From the IMG/VR virus record IMGVR_UViG_3300023174_009219, positions 1-30,684 of that record: 30,684 bases of DNA, one strand, 5' to 3'. Source of the stretch: a virus. Below, in pieces: positions 4,195 to 15,321 of this stretch. Position numbers and translations under genes: made by a program. Below the pieces are notes generated by a model. The model was not told the origin of the DNA. It ran no database searches and saw nothing but the letters and a program-made list of their open reading frames with translations. Position 1 is the first letter of the stretch. Each line of letters opens with the position of its first letter.

Positions 4195-4277
4195 AGGGAT
4201 GAAGGGGATGAAGGGGATTGGCTGAAGACTGTTACGTCAGAAACCTCTGCGCCTCTGCGCCTCTGCGGGAGATAGAA
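4195..4277. repeat. Gap with GATGAAGGG and CCTCTGCG tandem repeats
   Basis: The gap between the spanin and holin genes contains GGGATGAA-type repeats (about 4197-4219) and three exact copies of CCTCTGCG at 4244-4267. The latter are inverted with respect to the CGCAGAGG copies on the other side of the spanin gene. No gene is seen. Confidence 0.75.
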
Positions 4278-4823
4278 TCATAGAGCGAACTTGAATCCCA
4301 TGCGAAGGGAGAGGTAACCAGCTAGGGAGGCTAGAGTGATGGCGGCGAGGCCGCGCCAGATCCAGAGTTCGCGGAGGCTCTTCTGATGCTTGGCCTTCCA
4401 GTAGGTTGCAGACTCTTCGGCCTTGATGAGGGCCAATGATAATTCATCCACCTTGGCTGAGTAGTTCGATACCTCGAGGAGCGAGGAGTCCAGGGATGCG
4501 TTCAGATCGTCTAGGGTTCGCAGTCCTGCGGGGGTGGTGACTTCGGAGCGTAGGGCGGTCGCGTGTGCCTTGGCCGAGGTCACGGCGCGCAGGACACCGG
4601 CGGATGATGGAGCGTAGGAGGCGACCGGCTTCGGAGCGGAAGCGCAGCCGGTCACTAGCAACGCAAGGATTGCCAGAACTGCAACTCCAGAGAATCTAAC
4701 GAGTCGGAGCTGAAGGCGCAGGAGCTTAACGATGAAGACCGAGACAAGTCGGATGCGGACTTCTACCCATGCCAAGGCGAGTCGGAGCAGGAAATGGCGA
4801 GCGAGTAAGGCTATGATCTTCAC
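4278..4823 (-). CDS. Unimolecular spanin (u-spanin) candidate
   Basis: This 181-residue protein has the two-anchor design of a u-spanin, which links outer and inner membranes and disrupts the outer one in the last step of lysis. A hydrophobic signal segment ends in a lipobox, LLVTGC, with C60 as the lipidated residue. A soluble helical stretch (about 70-145, rich in Ala, Leu, Ser and Glu) follows. A C-terminal membrane segment (WRGLAAITLASLAGYLSL) completes it. The basic region before the signal is unusually long (about 45 residues). The GTG start at 4823 is supported by TTGACA exactly 13 nt upstream, but a later start is possible. Flanking CGCAGAGG repeats are inverted around the gene. Confidence 0.7.
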   Translation of the reverse strand: MKIIALLARHFLLRLALAWVEVRIRLVSVFIVKLLRLQLRLVRFSGVAVLAILALLVTGCASAPKPVASYAPSSAGVLRAVTSAKAHATALRSEVTTPAGLRTLDDLNASLDSSLLEVSNYSAKVDELSLALIKAEESATYWKAKHQKSLRELWIWRGLAAITLASLAGYLSLRMGFKFAL

Positions 4824-5288: not shown

Positions 5289-5635
5289 GGCGTAAGAGAG
5301 TTCATCGTTGCCCACGTTGAGAGGAGGCTGTCCATCAGATCGGCGGGGAGGGATTCTGAGGAGATGGAGAATGTGCGCTCTCCCTCAGTAGCGGTGACGC
5401 TGACTGCGGCGTTGAGCGTGTTGCGAGTTGTCTCATCCTCCATCGTTACTGATCCGCCTGATTCCAGCACGATTTGCGAGACGGTCTCGCCCTCAACTAG
5501 CTGAGAGGAGAGCCAAGTGAGAAGTGTGGTAGAGACGCTAGCAAGATCGCCCGTTAGAGGGATGTCTTGGGAGTAGCTATAGGCTCCGGTCTTGCCGAAC
5601 TTCGTAAGCGATGATGGGGTGAAAATAAGCGTCAT
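5285..5635 (-). CDS. Hypothetical protein after tail fibre
   Basis: This 116-residue protein is rich in Ser and Thr, with no membrane segment or motif that I recognise. It is ATGA-coupled at both ends, to the tail fibre gene upstream and the small membrane protein downstream. Its position suggests a minor virion or tail-fibre-associated protein. The C-terminal part (ESLPADLMDSLLSTWATMNSL) is helical. Confidence 0.6.
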   Translation of the reverse strand: MTLIFTPSSLTKFGKTGAYSYSQDIPLTGDLASVSTTLLTWLSSQLVEGETVSQIVLESGGSVTMEDETTRNTLNAAVSVTATEGERTFSISSESLPADLMDSLLSTWATMNSLTP

Positions 5636-7893
5636 GACTGAATGAGCATAAGGTTGGATATCGCAGTCTGTGCAAATGCCGTTGCATCCGTGACACTTTG
5701 TTGTGAAAGGTTTAATGCAAGACTCTGATTGGCAATCTGCGTGCCGGAATACACGGACATTCCTGTGAGCGTGATAGCTGGCGTGTTGGTGATTGAACCA
5801 AGGTGAAGCTCCAGCGTTCCGTTGCCACGGCTATACAAAAACATTCTCCTTACCCTTCCAGCAGTTATTTGTATTGGAACTGAGATTTTATTTGCTACGC
5901 CTCCCGATGTGTAAGCCCCATTACCCACACTTCCAGACAACTCAAAAGTATTTGCCGTTCGATTTGCAACAGTTCTGATGCCGTTTGCCGCAGTATTCCC
6001 TACAACGCCAGTAATCTCTACTAGGTCGCCGTTCTGCAAATTGTGACCATTATTAGTAATCACAATCGGGGTGGCGTTGGTCGCTCCTGAGATATTGACG
6101 TTAGTGGTAGAAATCGTGCGAGCGTAGATGGCCACATCGTATGTTGTTGATGTCGCCTTTGAAATCCTCACGCCAAATCCTGCGTTGTTAATGCCTCCAG
6201 CAACGCCCGATGTGACTGATGCTCCTCCTAAAAACACACGAGAAATGACATCTAGGGCGTTTGTAGGGCCACCACGAATCTCAATGAAGAATCCTAGTGC
6301 GAATGGTTGGGTAAAGTTAATGACCCCTCCTCCTCCAGCGGTCGCATTTGCGGCTCCTATTCCGTTGTCTGGCGAGATAAACTGATAGCCCGTATTAGGC
6401 GTGCTCAGAACTGCCGCAGTCACTCCAGCGGTAGGGGTTGCCCCGTTGCCTACTGCAAAGAAATTCCCGTTGTTTGTGGTACTGCCGCCAGTGCCTAATG
6501 TTTGGTTCCAGTTTACAGTTGCGATATTTGATACATAAGGCCCACCGAAGATCATGCGTTGATCTACCAAGTCCCTCGTCATAATGGACGAGCCAGAAGC
6601 CGCAGTTTGGTTAGGAGCTGTGTTGGCAGAGCCAGAAAGAACTTGATTCTGGGTGAAGGTATTTGCTGTGTTTTTTAAGGGAACGTTCGCTGATAAAAGC
6701 AGATCACTTAGAGTTCCCTCACTTAAACCCGTTGCGGAGGCATTTCCAGCCACCATGATTCTTGAAAAACTATCTCCCGTCGCACTTCCAAAGTATAGTG
6801 CCTGTCCTTGTCGGAGTATGGCATTTGTTCTCAGCACCGACGCTAAAGCCCCTGCGTTAACTGAGGGGAGTTGTAATGTTTTCCCAAGGGTTCCTCCAGT
6901 CTCTATTCCCTCTGTATTAAAATAAACATTGGAGCCAGCGTAAATATCTGTAAAGAATGGCGACGAGCCGGAGTTAACGTTCTGATCGGGAAGGTTTGGC
7001 GGAAGTGGATGTGTATGGTCTGCTCTTGATGCCCAAACACTTGTTCCTTCTGTCCCATTTTCTGTTGCTGGTTGCCCTGTAAGTCTCAACGCAGGAGCTT
7101 TTTCAACAACAGTTCCAGACGGCCATGTAGCTTGCCATGGATATGTCGCATTAGAAAGGGACGTTACTAAGATAGTCTCTACTGGCTCTTCTCCAGAATT
7201 ATCAACAAAGATAATCAACCATGCTGACCCTCTTTTTTCTATTAAGTACCCGTTAACTCCAACAATGTATCGGAAAAGGGAACTCGTGATCTTTGCAAAT
7301 CTTTGCGTTCCCAAACTTGGGATATTGTATAAAGCGTCACTGACGCTATCAGCTAGATATTCTGGATTCGGCTGAAACGCTGGAATCGTCGGTTTGTTGA
7401 GAATCTGAGCTACGCCTGATGCGGCGTTCCAATCGGAGTTGACTTGAGAGGCGGGGATTGTGGGCTTGCTTGAGAGGTCTGCGTAACTGCCCGAAGTCGC
7501 CACAGTTGCCAGAGTTGGGAAATCTGTAATCTGCGACTTTGTATGAGTGTGAGCAGTCGGAGTCCTAGCAGCTGTCGGGTTGTCTGGCGTAAAGCCGAGA
7601 GCGGTCGTGATATTGCCAGAGGTAACGGAAGCATCGGACCCATTCTGACCGGGCACTCCTTGGGGGCCGGGTACTGTGGAAGCTGCACCCGGTGGCCCTT
7701 GGATTCCTTGGGGGCCGGGTATTGTGGAGGCAGCACCCGGTGGCCCTTGGGGGCCGGTTGCCCCAGTTAAGCCAATCCCTGTATCTCCCTTAATTCCTTG
7801 AATCCCCTGCGCTCCGGGCAATCCCGTGGCTCCGACCTTCAGCACGACGGCGGTCTGGACCCGAGGCGTAATAGTGACCTTGATCTCGCTCAT
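5632..7893 (-). CDS. Tail fibre / receptor-binding protein with collagen-like repeats
   Basis: This 753-residue protein is a likely tail fibre. An N-terminal strand segment precedes about 65 residues of Gly-X-Y collagen-like repeats (about 25-85, units such as GPPGAASTIPGPQG). Next come fibre-type spacers (THTKSQITDFPTLATVATSGSY). A long beta-rich body includes, around residues 600-655, a module matching the FCCH-type repeat of phage fibres (NNGHNLQNGDLVEITGVVGN, then ANTFELSG). The C-terminal domain presumably trimerises and binds the receptor. The ATG at 7893 lies 5 nt after the previous stop. The body is more AT-rich and uses different codons from the collagen part, which suggests a transferred receptor-binding module. 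Confidence 0.87.
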   Translation of the reverse strand: MSEIKVTITPRVQTAVVLKVGATGLPGAQGIQGIKGDTGIGLTGATGPQGPPGAASTIPGPQGIQGPPGAASTVPGPQGVPGQNGSDASVTSGNITTALGFTPDNPTAARTPTAHTHTKSQITDFPTLATVATSGSYADLSSKPTIPASQVNSDWNAASGVAQILNKPTIPAFQPNPEYLADSVSDALYNIPSLGTQRFAKITSSLFRYIVGVNGYLIEKRGSAWLIIFVDNSGEEPVETILVTSLSNATYPWQATWPSGTVVEKAPALRLTGQPATENGTEGTSVWASRADHTHPLPPNLPDQNVNSGSSPFFTDIYAGSNVYFNTEGIETGGTLGKTLQLPSVNAGALASVLRTNAILRQGQALYFGSATGDSFSRIMVAGNASATGLSEGTLSDLLLSANVPLKNTANTFTQNQVLSGSANTAPNQTAASGSSIMTRDLVDQRMIFGGPYVSNIATVNWNQTLGTGGSTTNNGNFFAVGNGATPTAGVTAAVLSTPNTGYQFISPDNGIGAANATAGGGGVINFTQPFALGFFIEIRGGPTNALDVISRVFLGGASVTSGVAGGINNAGFGVRISKATSTTYDVAIYARTISTTNVNISGATNATPIVITNNGHNLQNGDLVEITGVVGNTAANGIRTVANRTANTFELSGSVGNGAYTSGGVANKISVPIQITAGRVRRMFLYSRGNGTLELHLGSITNTPAITLTGMSVYSGTQIANQSLALNLSQQSVTDATAFAQTAISNLMLIQS
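7658..7757 (-). repeat. 48-bp direct repeat encoding collagen-like units
   Basis: Near-identical copies begin at 7658 and 7706, and a partial third follows at about 7743. They encode a 16-residue GPPGAAST(I/V)PGPQG unit. Such repeats expand and contract easily. Confidence 0.8.
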
Positions 7894-8802: not shown

Positions 8803-10764
8803 TTAAAGTTGCACCTCGGTCGAGGCCGCCATGTTCGTGATGCATCGGGTTACGTGTAGATCATTGGGCAGAGTTGCTGATTCTGTGAGGCTAAAGGGGC
8901 CTCTCACATAGTTGAACTTCGTTCTATTCTCTGCCATCACGGAACGAGTTGGGCAGTTGGGATTAGACGAGTCATTCGTCACAACAAACCAATGAATAAA
9001 TGTTTTGTAGTTAGTAGGTGAGGTTGGCTCTGATACAGTGGGGACAGTTACAGAGACATTGAAATTCGCAGTCAGGGATTGTGATTCTGCATCGTTACCA
9101 TCTGCGCTCTCTGTCTTATATGCGCAGAGGCCACCATTAGATTCCCAAGTAGTTGTGGTGGAGTTTTCTGGCGTTAGGGTGTCAGCCATATCTCCACTCC
9201 ATGTCATGTTAAATGAGTAATTAGTGCTATAACTGAACGCCCCTGTTTCCGTATCATCATATTGGATTCTATTCCATGAGACGGAGGTTTCTATTCCCAC
9301 TGTAGAGCTAATGCTAGAGCCTGAGATGCTTCGTTGCTCAGTGGTCGTTGTTGTTGTGGTAACAGGAGGCCCGCCCTCGTAAGTGGGAGCAGTGCTAGTA
9401 GTAGTAGTAGTCCTGTCGCAAAGGGCAGTGCTTGTTGGGACATTATAAGGCTCTTCAGTAGTGAAAGGCCCATAAGTGGTTGTTTCCCCTTGGAAGGTAT
9501 CTACAGTTGTGGTGATGGTGGTTAATGTTCCATCTGCCGCAAGTGCCTTAGTTGTAGTCCCAACTGAGTTTGATATGTGATTTTGATCAGTACGAAACAT
9601 GACGTTCGTAACAGATGATCCAGACCCCCCATAAACAGCGGTCTGCCCGTCAATAGATTCGGTTATAGTTGAAGTAAAATTCTCGTTTGCGTTTAAATCG
9701 TAAGTGATCCCCTCCCAGTCATTGTAATAAGGGTAAACGTGTCTAAACTCACTAGATCCCGATGCACTATAACTATAGCTACTAACAGTAGTCAGAACGG
9801 CGTAACGCTTGCAGTCTGGGGCTATGAATCCAGCGAAGGGAGCGTCTGCATTTCGCACCTTGCTCACTCTCTGGCCTGTTGTCACTGGCGTAACAATTGA
9901 TGGGAAGTTGGAAGAACTTGGCGAACCAGCAAAAGTCAACTCAAGAGTTCTCACGCCAATCGAACTCGGAGCAGAGATAGTCACGCTTTCGCCAGCATCA
10001 TACTCAGTCTCACTCTCTAGTGTCTTTGGCCCTCCCTCTTGCGGCGTGAAATAGACCTTAACTGTGGTCGTTCCAAGAAACTCTAATAACAACTCACTCT
10101 TCGTCACCGAGTAGTCGCTTTTATAAAAAAGAGTGCTTAAGATGCTACAAGGGGATACAGCATCCCAGCTAACAGCGGTATTTCCGCCGGTTCCAGCAAT
10201 GATCTGAGCATCACTATCCCATGCTGGAAATTTCATAACATCATCCAGAGGATTCCCTGCCATTATAGAGTCTACATTGGACTCAACATTATTGATTGTG
10301 TATGGCTGACTTAGCGAGATGGAAACTGTTTTATCACCTCCTGCTGATATGTCCGTACATCCCTCATACTCAGGCGGAGGATCTAAAGGCCCACAATTTG
10401 TGGTCTGTGAGGTGGGACTACACGTGAAGCTCTCATTCGACCCATTGACGCAACCACAGCCGACCGACACATCCCCAGAAACGCACTGCAATCCCGTGAA
10501 GGGATCAATGGTATAGGTAGTCGTTGTAGATTTCTGTATAGGAGTGACACAGCCCACCTGGGCAGAACTGCAATTCACCCGATACTGAAGATAGCGGGTG
10601 ATCGGAGTATTCGGAGCGGGAGCCGGGGTGTTAGGACAGGTGAAAGGCGAGAAGCCGACAAGATTGAGCGTTGCGCTTTTCCGCTTCACCTTTACCAAAA
10701 AAGCGGAACACAAAAGCGTGGGGCAGCATTCCCCCCCGCAGGAGTTTTTTATATACGTTCCCAT
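8803..10764 (-). CDS. Large Thr/Ser-rich virion protein, unknown
   Basis: This 653-residue protein lies where a tail tip or central fibre component is expected, between the tape measure and the fibre. The N-terminus is Cys-rich (KNSCGGECCPTLLC, then pairs such as VGCGCVNG). The rest is strongly Thr/Ser-rich, with runs such as TTTTTSTAPTY and VTTTTTTTE and many predicted beta strands. I do not recognise a hub or baseplate domain. The ATG at 10764 has one of the few good SD sequences in the window (AGGAGAG, 6 nt before the start), which suggests high expression. The paired cysteines could form disulphides in the mature particle. Confidence 0.7.
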   Translation of the reverse strand: MGTYIKNSCGGECCPTLLCSAFLVKVKRKSATLNLVGFSPFTCPNTPAPAPNTPITRYLQYRVNCSSAQVGCVTPIQKSTTTTYTIDPFTGLQCVSGDVSVGCGCVNGSNESFTCSPTSQTTNCGPLDPPPEYEGCTDISAGGDKTVSISLSQPYTINNVESNVDSIMAGNPLDDVMKFPAWDSDAQIIAGTGGNTAVSWDAVSPCSILSTLFYKSDYSVTKSELLLEFLGTTTVKVYFTPQEGGPKTLESETEYDAGESVTISAPSSIGVRTLELTFAGSPSSSNFPSIVTPVTTGQRVSKVRNADAPFAGFIAPDCKRYAVLTTVSSYSYSASGSSEFRHVYPYYNDWEGITYDLNANENFTSTITESIDGQTAVYGGSGSSVTNVMFRTDQNHISNSVGTTTKALAADGTLTTITTTVDTFQGETTTYGPFTTEEPYNVPTSTALCDRTTTTTSTAPTYEGGPPVTTTTTTTEQRSISGSSISSTVGIETSVSWNRIQYDDTETGAFSYSTNYSFNMTWSGDMADTLTPENSTTTTWESNGGLCAYKTESADGNDAESQSLTANFNVSVTVPTVSEPTSPTNYKTFIHWFVVTNDSSNPNCPTRSVMAENRTKFNYVRGPFSLTESATLPNDLHVTRCITNMAASTEVQL

Positions 10765-10781
10765 GATCTCTCTCCTGGCGG

Positions 10782-11051
10782 CTAATAAGGTTCTGTCCCT
10801 AGTACCATCATCTGCTTAGCCACTCCATCCACACAGATGCCGATCTCGATCCATCGGACAGGGCGGTTGGATGCCGTGAAATCTAGCATGCTTCCCTTAT
10901 CGGTCTTATCCACTTTGTAGATGCCGAGCTTGTCGGGCAAAAGCTCAAGCATTCCGAAATTATCATCAAGGTCTTTTGCCTTAATGACGGATGGAGGCGA
11001 CTTTCCATCACCTTTCTTTCCTAAATAATCGCGAAACTTAATGAGGTTCAC
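10782..11051 (-). CDS. Small hypothetical tail-region protein
   Basis: This 89-residue protein, read from GTG at 11051, has no recognised domain. It has a basic N-terminus (MNLIKFRDYLGKKGDGKSPP) and a strand-rich C-terminus (NRPVRWIEIGICVDGVAKQMMVLG). It lies 6 nt after the stop of the 200-residue gene and 17 nt before the large Thr-rich gene, so it is probably in the same transcript. A virion or assembly role is inferred from position. Confidence 0.6.
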   Translation of the reverse strand: MNLIKFRDYLGKKGDGKSPPSVIKAKDLDDNFGMLELLPDKLGIYKVDKTDKGSMLDFTASNRPVRWIEIGICVDGVAKQMMVLGTEPY

Positions 11052-11057
11052 GATATT

Positions 11058-11660
11058 TTATCCAGTGATCGTTTTGGTTCCGGTTGCCTCGATCACATAA
11101 TATATTCCGACTCTTGTGCTCGTAAGACCTGTCAGTAGCCATGATTCTGACACTGATGGGGCCGCTCCTGGAGTACCATCTACATAGGACTCAAGAATTC
11201 TGACAGAATAGCCGCTCGATGGCGTAGTAGGGACAACGCCTCCTTGACTAGAAATAAAATAACTCGTGACAGTGGGCGCAGCGTATCTACCGGTATATTG
11301 TGTTGTCGTGATGTTCGGTGCTGTCCCGTTTTTTACGCTCTTGGAATAAGAGAGGATAGAGGTTCCATAAAGCGTCTTATATACTTGTTTACTCACTCCA
11401 ATATAGTTGACGGAATAGGTGGTGATGCCATTTGCCCTGGACTTGGTAGAGGAATTGCAAATCAGGTTGCTAACTCCGGTTGGAAGGGTGTAGCCAAAAA
11501 CCGCTGAGTCAATAGTTAGAGCCGCATCTGCCGTGCTTTCGTAGCTGGTAGCGCAAGCATACTCTCTCGAGAGGGTCGCAATACCCTCATCATTCATCAA
11601 GAGAGTACCAGATTTGGTCAGGATAAGTTCGGATGTTGATCCTTGGAGAGTGACAGCCAT
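11058..11660 (-). CDS. Hypothetical virion protein after tape measure
   Basis: This 200-residue protein is rich in Thr, Ser, Tyr and Gly, with little charge and a beta-strand pattern throughout. That is usual for distal tail or tail-tip proteins. It follows the tape measure gene, where distal tail genes are normally found. No specific family was recognised. The ATG at 11660 follows a short repeat-bearing gap and has no SD. Confidence 0.62.
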   Translation of the reverse strand: MAVTLQGSTSELILTKSGTLLMNDEGIATLSREYACATSYESTADAALTIDSAVFGYTLPTGVSNLICNSSTKSRANGITTYSVNYIGVSKQVYKTLYGTSILSYSKSVKNGTAPNITTTQYTGRYAAPTVTSYFISSQGGVVPTTPSSGYSVRILESYVDGTPGAAPSVSESWLLTGLTSTRVGIYYVIEATGTKTITG

Positions 11661-11677: not shown

Positions 11678-11703
11678 GTGTTAGGCTAGGAGCTAGGCTA
11701 GGA
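11678..11703 (+). repeat. GCTAGG-type short repeat at tape measure stop
   Basis: GTTAGGCTAGGAGCTAGGC-like repeats fill the gap and run into the stop codon of the tape measure gene. They belong to the same class of simple junction repeats seen at 13717-13756. Confidence 0.6.
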
Positions 11704-13705
11704 CTTGGATCGGAAGGGATCTGTAAAGTAGGTCATAGATGTCTTTGGCAGCTTTGGCTAAAGCCCCCATGTCATTTTGAGGGTCTTTCTTATGATCCTG
11801 ACCCTTGTTGTCATAGCCGGGGACAGTCTTCGGATCTCCCCCCCCTTTCTTCTTCTGCACGAGTGCTTCAAAATCCGCTGCGGCTTTATCCCTCAAATCC
11901 GCAGGATTCCCACCAATGTCCTGCTGGTACTTGCGGAAAAGGTCATCAATGGCTTGCGCTTTGGATGCGTTTTCCATCCCTCCCGTGTAGTGGGAAAGGT
12001 CTTTCTGCACCGATTCATTTGCCCTCGTATCCATGCGGATTGCAATTTGGTCATCCGTCATGCGTCCGCCAGTAGTCGAATAATTGTAATCGTTCTGATG
12101 CAAGAGGCTCTGCATTGCCGACTTCAAGGGGTCGGCGCTCCGTCCTGATCCCATAGACTCACGCGAAGATCGGCTCGCCCTCGATGCGGCCTTGCGATCT
12201 GAGGCACTGGCAACCGGGCCAATGTCACCAGCTCCGATCTTCAGCCCGGAGAGGGCCGCAAGGCCCGAGGACTCGGTGTTCCCTGCGGCAAATTCCTTAA
12301 AACTACCCGTCGCGCCAGCAAATTTATCTGCCATGCTGCTGGTCGCCTTGTCCCATGCGTTCGCCTCGGCGGTGATGGCCCTGGCATGGTCAAGACTCTC
12401 CTGCATCTTGGATCGAATGACAGCCCCGGACTCGGCAGCAATATCTAAATACTCATTCACTTTCTGGCTGCTCCCCTCGGCATCCATGAAGTCATACTTC
12501 GATAGCTCTGTCTTCTCGCGAGCTTCAGAGAATGCCCGCGCCACTCCCTCAGCATTCACCGCAAGGTTGTTCTCAAATATCTGTCCCGCTGCCTCGGCAT
12601 CAGATCGAAGGGAGGCGGCGGCCTCTCTCATGGGTGCTGCCCACTTCTCCGGGAGCAGTCCTGAGATGTTCTCTAGCCCCGAGGCGATCAGATTGAGCAT
12701 TCCTTGCACCGCCAGCGCAAAGGCCCCCTCAAGTCCCCTGCCGATGTATCCGATGATGCCGTCCTTGGCTAGTGACTGAAAGAAGTTCACACCGAACTCA
12801 AAGGCGTACACAAGTCCTGAGTCCAAGGCATTGACCGCTCTCTTAAATGCCAGGATCAATGACTCACCAAAGGCCAAGAAGAGATTGCCGGGATTCGTAA
12901 AGACGGAGAGGGCAATATCGACTCCGCGAGAAAGTGCCTCAGAGAAAGATTTCCCAAATCCGGTAGCGTCCACGCTCTTGAAATAATCGACCAGCGTCGT
13001 CATCGCCGGAATGGACTCATCGAGAAGGCCAGCCGTGAACTCCACCAGCTTGCCACCGATGGCCCCAATGCCATCGCCAATAGCATCAAAGGATCTTGCG
13101 TTCTTCTCCATCTCCTCTGCAAAGCTCCCGACCTCAGAAGATGCCTGAGAGACCTGACCATCGAAGTCTGCAAAGAGGGCAAGCGTCTTGCCTCCCGACT
13201 TCCCGAAAATCTCCATCGCAGCCCCGGCTCGCTCGGTAGGGTCTTGGATCTTGGCGATGGCCTTCGCTATTGTCTCGAACTGCTGGTCAGGAGTCATGGC
13301 CTCGAGGTCAGAGACCTTCAGTCCAAGGCGACCGATCTTGTCGGCGGCGGCAGACCCCTCATCACCGGCGGCTACTAGGGTCTTCTGCATCTTGTTGATA
13401 ACAGTCCCAAGATCCTCGGCGTGCATTCCGTTATTCTCAAAAGCCCTCCCAAGGATGACGAGCTTCCCAGTGGCGATGCCGGTCTGATCGGAGAAATCGG
13501 CAAGTTGGCCTCCCTTATCCATCACTCCATTAAAGGCTCCGACCGCAGCCGAGATGGAAACATACCCGGCGGCTAGCCCAGCGAGCTTGCCAGCGATACT
13601 CCCGAAGGTCTCACCCATCGCGTGACCCGCCTTCCCGACTTCGGAAAATGCGCCCAAAACGACATCCTTGCCGGTTACGCCTAAACTGACTGATACATCG
13701 CTCAT
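11693..13705 (-). CDS. Tail tape measure protein
   Basis: This 670-residue protein is among the longest in the window. It sets tail length and fills the tail tube. The N-terminal region is Ala/Gly-rich and helical (GKDVVLGAFSEVGKAGHAM, AAGYVSISAAVGAFNGVMDKG). A TMP-type core follows (SDQTGIATGKLVILGRAFENN and PDQQFETIAKAIAKIQDP, then AGAAMEIFGKSGGKTLALF), as in many phage tape measure proteins. Hydrophobic helices lie about 270-350 (FLAFGESLILAFKRAVNALD), and a charged helical C-terminus follows. It follows the tail chaperone pair, as in lambda-like tails. The ATG at 13705 follows an 8-bp tandem repeat array. Confidence 0.9.
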   Translation of the reverse strand: MSDVSVSLGVTGKDVVLGAFSEVGKAGHAMGETFGSIAGKLAGLAAGYVSISAAVGAFNGVMDKGGQLADFSDQTGIATGKLVILGRAFENNGMHAEDLGTVINKMQKTLVAAGDEGSAAADKIGRLGLKVSDLEAMTPDQQFETIAKAIAKIQDPTERAGAAMEIFGKSGGKTLALFADFDGQVSQASSEVGSFAEEMEKNARSFDAIGDGIGAIGGKLVEFTAGLLDESIPAMTTLVDYFKSVDATGFGKSFSEALSRGVDIALSVFTNPGNLFLAFGESLILAFKRAVNALDSGLVYAFEFGVNFFQSLAKDGIIGYIGRGLEGAFALAVQGMLNLIASGLENISGLLPEKWAAPMREAAASLRSDAEAAGQIFENNLAVNAEGVARAFSEAREKTELSKYDFMDAEGSSQKVNEYLDIAAESGAVIRSKMQESLDHARAITAEANAWDKATSSMADKFAGATGSFKEFAAGNTESSGLAALSGLKIGAGDIGPVASASDRKAASRASRSSRESMGSGRSADPLKSAMQSLLHQNDYNYSTTGGRMTDDQIAIRMDTRANESVQKDLSHYTGGMENASKAQAIDDLFRKYQQDIGGNPADLRDKAAADFEALVQKKKGGGDPKTVPGYDNKGQDHKKDPQNDMGALAKAAKDIYDLLYRSLPIQVLA

Positions 13706-13812: not shown

Positions 13813-14652
13813 TTATGCCGTTTGCTCTGCGGCCTTCTTAAGAGCGAACCGGATTTCCCTATCCATCGAGGTGACGAACTTCTCGCGGCTGATACGGATG
13901 GCCTCCTTGTGTTCTGTCGGGCGGAGTGCCTTGTCCTGCCAAGGCAACTTTGCAGTAAGCGTAATATGCGGAGCCATTGAATCTGATTTGTCCATGACTG
14001 CTGATGGAACATTAGATACGTGCCGCTTGACCCATGCAGGAAGACCGGAGAGTGCATCCTTGACGTCGGCATTCACCTTCTCCGCAGCAGAAGCCCATGC
14101 CGCTTTTGTCAGGCCAACAAGATCTTGCTTGGCTGCGATGAAATCCTTTAATTCTGAAGAGGGCATGACGATATTGCGACCCTGCCATCCCTTGCGAACC
14201 CGTCCGTAATTATTCCGAGTGGATTTGTAGAGAGAAGTATCAACCCTACCAACCACTAGCTTTGAGAATCCACCGGCAGCCGACAAGATGGCCGAGAGCT
14301 TGGACTGATTCGATGCCTTGATTGCTGAAAGAATTGCTTCTTTGAGCTTGGGATTTCTGGTGACGTATTTTCCCACTTGATCGCTAAAGCTGACAACCGA
14401 GGAAGGGTGCTTCAGCTTGATTGGCGTTACTGGGGTAAATACTCGAAGGATGTCGTTCTGAACCGCCTTCTCTCCGAGCTTCCTTGCTGCAATGTCTTTC
14501 CCATAGGGAGGCGCGGAATAGGCAAGATTCACAGCAAGCAAGCGAGCACCTCTCCGCATCGTTCCTGTGATCTCCTTGCCGGTCACCTCCTCTAGCCGCT
14601 TCATTTTCTTGAGAAGCTGCACGTTATCAATCTGAACTTTAGGAGTTGCCAT
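13813..14652 (-). CDS. Hypothetical tail protein between chaperone and tape measure
   Basis: This 279-residue basic protein lies between the chaperone frameshift frame and the tape measure. It has an N-terminal helix pair (VQLLKKMKRLEEVTGKEITG, RRGARLLAVNLAYSAPPYG) of the sort seen in HK97 gp10-like proteins. The Lys/Arg-rich body ends in a helix (EIRFALKKAAEQTA). I cannot assign a family with confidence. The ATG at 14652 is 1 nt after the chaperone stop. TTGACA ends 15 nt upstream, inside the chaperone frame. Seven codons further upstream in frame are possible but would overlap that gene. Confidence 0.65.
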   Translation of the reverse strand: MATPKVQIDNVQLLKKMKRLEEVTGKEITGTMRRGARLLAVNLAYSAPPYGKDIAARKLGEKAVQNDILRVFTPVTPIKLKHPSSVVSFSDQVGKYVTRNPKLKEAILSAIKASNQSKLSAILSAAGGFSKLVVGRVDTSLYKSTRNNYGRVRKGWQGRNIVMPSSELKDFIAAKQDLVGLTKAAWASAAEKVNADVKDALSGLPAWVKRHVSNVPSAVMDKSDSMAPHITLTAKLPWQDKALRPTEHKEAIRISREKFVTSMDREIRFALKKAAEQTA

Positions 14653-14653
14653 C

Positions 14654-14821
14654 TTAGAAGTCCTCAATGTCAATCACGTCATCAGCCCACCGGAGCGTCT
14701 TGCCCCCGAGCCAGATGTGATAGTCCAAGATCCTCATCCCCTCGGTGAAGGGGAGTTCCCAAAGGATATAATCGAAAGTCCACGAGGTCTTCTCGGCCAG
14801 CCTAGCGACGTAACTCGTCAA
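14654..14821 (-). CDS. Tail assembly chaperone second frame (T-like), by -1 frameshift
   Basis: This short frame encodes about 55 residues (TSYVARLAEKTSWTFDYILW, then a WELPFTEGMR segment, ending DVIDIEDF). It is in the -1 frame relative to the upstream gene. The open frame extends upstream through the CCCAAAA heptamer to a stop 11 codons or so beyond it. It is therefore best read as the extension of a GT-type fusion, in the way lambda makes gpG and gpGT. A TTG at 14821, overlapping the upstream stop as TTGA, could instead start it independently. It lies just before the gene upstream of the tape measure, the standard place for T. The Trp-rich LAE..W.FDYI..LP pattern resembles small tail assembly proteins. 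Confidence 0.75.
   Translation of the reverse strand: MTSYVARLAEKTSWTFDYILWELPFTEGMRILDYHIWLGGKTLRWADDVIDIEDF
14668..14673 (-). promoter_or_regulatory. TTGACA start-proximal motif (N15)
   Basis: TTGACA ends 15 nt before the ATG at 14652. Here it is also coding sequence (Ile-Asp-Ile of the chaperone extension). Confidence 0.5.
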
Positions 14822-14845
14822 CCAGCCCGGCCTCCAGCTTTTGGG
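14795..14845 (-). promoter_or_regulatory. Programmed -1 ribosomal frameshift signal
   Basis: The heptamer CCCAAAA (14845 to 14839 on the - strand) is in register X-XXY-YYZ, with 0-frame codons GAC CCA AAA. A 6-nt spacer GCTGGA follows. Then comes a stem-loop in which GGCCGG (14832-14827) pairs with CTGGCC (14800-14795), with one G-U pair. It extends by two more pairs past a G-G mismatch and contains an inner GACG/CGTC stem. Slippage by -1 gives AGC TGG AGG as the next codons, the frame that runs to 14654. Confidence 0.85.
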
Positions 14846-15321
14846 TCGGCTGATTCTCCACCGCCGCTACCACTAGCTGTCCCTGAAACTGCCGTCTTGC
14901 TCTTGTTCATCCGCTCCACTAGCTCGAGGATGCGAGGTGTCGCCTCGGTGAAGACATCCGCCTCATACGTATCAAGGAAGTCATAAACCGCTGCCCTAAA
15001 CTCCTGTGGTCTCGCAGAGAGTTTCCTCACTTCATCCTTCTCCGAGGATTGGCAGAACAGGATAGCTCCGACGTCGAATGCCACGGAGTTCATCCTTCCC
15101 ATGACTAAGCCAACTCCACACTCGATCAGCATCGCCAAGTCTCCAGCCGAGATCCTGCGAAGCGAGAGACCGGCGATCTCCTCGCCGCTACGGAGGATTT
15201 CCTGATCGAGTTCTCGGTTGCGCTCAGACGTGTTGATCTGACTTCCTTCGTTGAGGTCATCCGAGAAGTCGGAGAATTCTTTGATGGGTTCCTTCTTTGA
15301 TGGGGTTTTCTTGTTTTGCAT
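14818..15321 (-). CDS. Tail assembly chaperone (G-like)
   Basis: This 167-residue protein lies upstream of the tape measure. Its N-terminus is charged (KKTPSKKEPIKEFSDFSDD). The helical core includes GEEIAGLSLRRISAGDLAML and GRMNSVAFDVGAILFCQSSE, then an ARPQEFRAAVYDFLD segment. The flexible tail is Gly/Ser-rich (SGTASGSGGGESADP), and the slippery site lies near its end. Such a core followed by a disordered linker is typical of tail chaperones expressed in two forms. The ATG at 15321 is supported by a strong SD (AAAGGAGAT). It should coat the tape measure protein during tail assembly. Confidence 0.78.
   Translation of the reverse strand: MQNKKTPSKKEPIKEFSDFSDDLNEGSQINTSERNRELDQEILRSGEEIAGLSLRRISAGDLAMLIECGVGLVMGRMNSVAFDVGAILFCQSSEKDEVRKLSARPQEFRAAVYDFLDTYEADVFTEATPRILELVERMNKSKTAVSGTASGSGGGESADPKAGGRAG

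Follow-up and report, generated by a model that had tools for sequence, protein, structure and literature searches.

A conserved slippery heptamer and a selected second frame point to lambda G/GT-type −1 frameshifting near the tape measure gene of an uncultured virus

Introduction

In long-tailed phages, −1 frameshifting of the lambda G/GT type is established and widespread (PMC5009743). In the window analysed here, the whole stretch of 30,684 nucleotides from virus record IMGVR_UViG_3300023174_009219, a small gene (G) is overlapped near its end by a second open frame (T) on the same strand (Table 1). The question raised by this locus is how T comes to be translated. A sequence-only reading had proposed that ribosomes shift into T at a CCCAAAA heptamer, as in the tail chaperone genes of lambda-like phages. 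We consider it highly likely, from the arrangement and conservation of these elements, that the locus is a frameshift of this type, in which G is the putative tail assembly chaperone and T its C-terminal extension.

Table 1. Coordinates of the features discussed, numbered along the window
Feature	Positions	Strand	Remarks
G, 167 aa	15321-14818	minus	ATG start, Gly/Ser-rich tail, TGA stop; tail assembly chaperone candidate
GGAG of SD-like stretch (GGTGGAG)	14859-14856	minus	10 nt upstream of heptamer; duplex -9.3 kcal/mol
Slippery heptamer C_CCA_AAA	14845-14839	minus	exact register with G for tandem -1 slip
-1 frame (T extension), 63 aa from slip codons	14845-14654	minus	TAA stop at 14654
Hairpin, 15 pairs (6+5+4)	14832-14795	minus	begins 6 nt 3' of heptamer
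TTG overlapping G stop (TTGA), rival T start	14821-14819	minus	GGAGG nine nt upstream
277-aa syntenic gene between T and tape measure	13813-14646	minus	in window and relatives
Tape measure protein	11693-13705	minus	PHROG 9483, E 2e-18

The slippery heptamer and its turnover

The last codons of G read ...GCC GAC CCA AAA GCT GGA GGC CGG GCT GGT TGA, and the CCCAAAA within GAC CCA AAA GCT lies in exact slippery register, as the sequence-only reading had stated. Heptamers of the form X_XXY_YYZ are found in register at 26 of the 8,079 codon positions in the 31 window genes, which corresponds to approximately 0.05 expected sites among the roughly 16 codons able to support a −1 shift. The site at the end of G is the only CCCAAAA among the 26; the CCA and AAA codons that compose it each make up only about one quarter of their own synonyms in the window. 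Because such sites are rare in the window genes and every distinct relative retains a slippery site (see below), the heptamer at the end of G reflects more than chance. An E. coli test of all X_XXZ_ZZN heptamers names CCCAAAG as the best (the window carries CCCAAAA) and singles out Y_YYA_AAR motifs as highly shifty (PMC4066793).

To collect relatives, viral_contigs was scanned at the protein level with G or with T as query; the G scans required neither T nor the heptamer. Besides the window, 16 contigs span the site, and 15 of them are distinct, L071 and L072 being identical over 2 kb; a seventeenth matching contig ends before the site. No relative was found in genome_contigs or, by tblastn, in annotated phages. 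Two contigs matched by DNA pattern (L042 and L043) were dropped as unrelated chance matches midway in another gene. G, T and a slippery heptamer in register are present in 15 of 15 distinct related viral contigs, the conservation for which the sequence-only reading had suggested an alignment. CCCAAAA occurs alone in 11 of the 15, while three (L012, L067 and L069) carry CCCAAAAAAA, with C_CCA_AAA and A_AAA_AAA both in register, and one (L071/L072) carries GCCAAAAAAA, with A_AAA_AAA only; counting the CCCAAAAAAA carriers, C_CCA_AAA is in register in 14 of the 15. Where CCCAAAA is lost, its place is taken by the in-register A_AAA_AAA with no change in spacing. In the relatives, the run of A always ends directly 5ʹ of GYTGG, at the same distance from the hairpin, and 25–28 nt always separate the slippery site from the G stop. 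The codon before CCA is variable (GAC, TCC, AGC, CGC or CTC), and it ends in C wherever CCCAAAA is kept.

Hairpin and upstream SD-like element

The 6-nt spacer between the heptamer and a downstream stem-loop is borne out, and the stem-loop itself, earlier put at about eight pairs, is nearly twice that size. The hairpin region of the window (86 nt) folds at -30.1 kcal/mol (z -2.0). The hairpin is among the strongest local 45-nt windows, and a fraction of 0.010 of synonymous shuffles is at least as stable. For 11 of the first 13 sequences, the segment just after the heptamer ranks second or third in stability among 276–650 local windows. When the T amino acids are preserved, the fraction of shuffles at least as stable is below 0.07 except in L020, L021 and L072 (0.073), and L020 and L021 have no unusual hairpin by comparison with coding-preserving shuffles. 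A different hairpin, with another 3ʹ arm, occupies the same place in L067, L069 and L071. Covariation is modest (two pairs with changes on both sides), and the case for the hairpin therefore relies on its stability against synonymous shuffles. In most relatives, an SD-like stretch lies approximately 7–10 nt upstream of the heptamer, weak in L025, and is perhaps a stimulator of the shift. In bacteria, a stimulatory RNA structure and an upstream SD-like element are both optional for −1 frameshifting.

L020 also carries an insert of about 1.1 kb between T and the next tail gene, with an antisense gene for an ATP-dependent DNA ligase (6350-7339, minus strand; Pfam DNA_ligase_A_M 1.4e-12, DNA_ligase_OB_2 4.9e-12). 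An insertion of equal size occupies the corresponding place in L021.

Coding and selection in the T frame

Read as CCC AAA AGC TGG..., the −1 frame encodes PKSWRPGWLTSYVARLAEKTSW...IEDF and ends at 14654, as had been claimed; the length of 55 residues given for it counts from TTG 14821, and 63 residues follow the shift. The open −1 frame extends back to 14866. The T frame is under purifying selection: past the G stop, pN/pS is 0.20 in T, whereas the two remaining forward frames have 0.96 and 1.82, and it is 0.21 in T codons 11–36, which lie upstream of an internal ATG. These counts are from the 13 sequences then in hand and are descriptive rather than a formal test, since those sequences are related to each other. 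The dual-coded overlap of G and T is nearly invariant. In L012, a short cysteine-rich coding stretch (4203-4380) that is missing from the window lies between T and the next gene.

Genomic context and family searches

The gene order g16266-g15819-g15335-G-T-g13813-TMP is kept across the relatives, although some genes went undetected in some contigs, and some contigs are cut. The proposed G/GT layout upstream of the tape measure gene stands, but not its placement directly before that gene: G/T lies two genes upstream, with the 277-aa gene between. The major tail protein gene was not among the genes identified. Downstream of the tape measure gene is a 653-aa protein (8803-10764, minus strand) without a Pfam or PHROG match. 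The window also encodes a 753-aa tail-fibre-like protein (5632-7893, minus strand) with a collagen-like stretch near its start and a match to the E1_FCCH model (1.5e-7) near its end.

Neither G nor T matches known chaperone families in Pfam or PHROGs at E≤0.001, and a Pfam search with T is empty even at E≤1. The best weak hints are Phage_TAC_7 in one G member (E 0.069) and PHROG 103, 'tail protein' (E 0.034); T also aligns with PHROG 11996, of unknown function, at E 0.0012 (10 of 11 members). A model of G of moderate confidence (mean pLDDT 67) finds no PDB fold at E≤0.001, its top fold matches being uncharacterised viral proteins only, and a profile search of solved structures gives only weak matches (best FliG, E 0.045). 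The best reading of these searches is that the pair represents a sequence family not recognised by Pfam and PHROGs. We infer the tail-chaperone assignment from position, architecture and synteny with the tape measure gene, not from significant sequence similarity; these features support the chaperone frameshift that the sequence-only reading had suggested.

Alternative explanations

T could instead be a separate gene, started at TTG 14821 and translationally coupled to G through GGAGG. The window and L017 have both elements, with good SD pairing (-9.3 kcal/mol), and a 55-aa ORF runs from this TTG to the T stop; the TTG and its GGAGG are callable as a start, and the earlier claim that a frame without an ATG start would escape gene calling thus holds only in part. 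However, CTG or TTA replaces the TTG in 14 of the 15 distinct relatives, leaving it only in the window and L017, and GGAGG is lost in most relatives (GGCGG, GGAGA or GGTCG). L018 has no ATG, GTG or TTG from the upstream stop at -111 to +168 and yet conserves T throughout. L022 has none before +147 and L019 none before +108, and in these three contigs purifying selection nevertheless acts on the stretch of T that precedes the internal ATG (pN/pS 0.19). With the TTG and GGAGG lost and T conserved in the start-less L018, initiation cannot be the general route to T. A TTG start would also leave the slippery heptamer and its turnover unexplained. A strong start kept after loss of the heptamer had been named as the pattern against frameshifting; the relatives show the opposite, losing the start and keeping the slippery site. 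A separate T gene is thus quite unlikely, although the window and L017 may make a small amount of TTG-started T in addition.

Even less probable is that T is reached by stuttering of RNA polymerase on the A run. Five contigs (L012, L067, L069, L071 and L072) do have A7 runs, but in the window and in 11 relatives the run is only four A long, too short for transcriptional slippage sites, and such slippage would need neither the hairpin nor the in-register XXXYYYZ signature. Two overlapping frames of one protein are also the expected look of a pseudogene, or of a sequencing frameshift in a once-fused gene, in a single genome. This explanation, the least probable of all, is refuted by the relatives: the same layout, including the 0-frame stop 25–28 nt past the site, occurs in 15 distinct contigs from different samples, and dual coding is conserved in them. 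Somewhat less remote, though still improbable, is a genuine frameshift in a gene pair that serves another structural role. Neither family nor fold searches match the pair significantly to chaperones, and one gene separates T from the tape measure gene; set against this are its position and size within the tail module, the −1 direction, the short C-terminal extension and a G/T-like pair ahead of the tape measure gene in Akkermansia phage Moulinsart.

Proposed mechanism and significance

Under the preferred reading, ribosomal −1 frameshifting, a fraction of ribosomes very probably slips back one base near the end of G, yielding a longer protein. Most ribosomes would stop at TGA 14818 and release G. 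On a minority of ribosomes, held up by the hairpin and perhaps also by the upstream SD-like element, tRNA-Pro on CCA and tRNA-Lys on AAA would slip to CCC AAA, and translation would continue in the −1 frame to TAA 14654, producing G-T. The ratio of G to G-T would be set by slippage. By analogy with lambda gpG/gpGT, G may coat the tape measure protein and T may recruit tail tube subunits.

A broader proposal, which we place at about an even chance, is that the pair belongs to a tail-chaperone family outside Pfam and PHROGs that spans uncultured and Akkermansia phages and has repeatedly exchanged its heptamer (C_CCA_AAA, both in tandem, A_AAA_AAA, A_AAA_AAC) and its hairpin while keeping the shift. 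If true, the family is a natural series for the turnover of recoding signals. The relatives form a natural slippery-site exchange series that can help to establish which elements of a −1 signal are under constraint. The analysis also annotates a putative hidden fusion protein in an uncultured phage group where family searches see nothing, and likewise in the cultured phage Moulinsart.

Comparison with known systems

In phage lambda gpG/gpGT, as predicted for the window, a small gene located ahead of the tape measure gene has a −1 shift close to its end, which adds a short C-terminal extension from an overlapping frame. The heptamers differ (G_GGA_AAG in lambda, C_CCA_AAA in the window), and the window further departs from lambda in its strong hairpin 3ʹ of the slip site, in the additional gene that separates T from the tape measure gene, and in showing no detectable similarity to chaperone families at E≤0.001. 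The P2 tail chaperones gpE/gpE' (Pfam Phage_TAC_7) are likewise linked by a −1 shift; the match of one G relative to this family, mentioned above, is not significant. In tests by others, two chaperone genes gave 6% and 7% (PMC3711429).

The closest terminase to that of the window is found in Akkermansia phage Moulinsart (L050, ON453896.1; 32%), whose corresponding region (10632-11332) contains genes at 10632-11090 and 11120-11332. As in the window, a small gene (152 aa) ends in an in-register heptamer, here A_AAA_AAC directly before TAG. A strong hairpin follows the slip site (-36 kcal/mol for 100 nt), and the −1 frame continues into an annotated hypothetical gene as a T-like frame, with a predicted junction around ...APSKKLAEPDGW. 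The related contigs L051, L056, L057 and L058 keep the site. Moulinsart differs from the window in its heptamer, in the larger number of genes that separate T from the tape measure gene, and in a T that also has ATG/GTG starts. When the T profiles of the two are aligned, matching positions lie equally far from the slip site (hhalign E 0.004, with a probability of only 8%), and none of 200 column shuffles scores as high. The T of the window is probably homologous to that of Moulinsart, which itself probably uses a −1 frameshift that its record does not annotate. The mechanism is a textbook one, known from lambda and many tailed phages, and the window is a well-supported further example of it.
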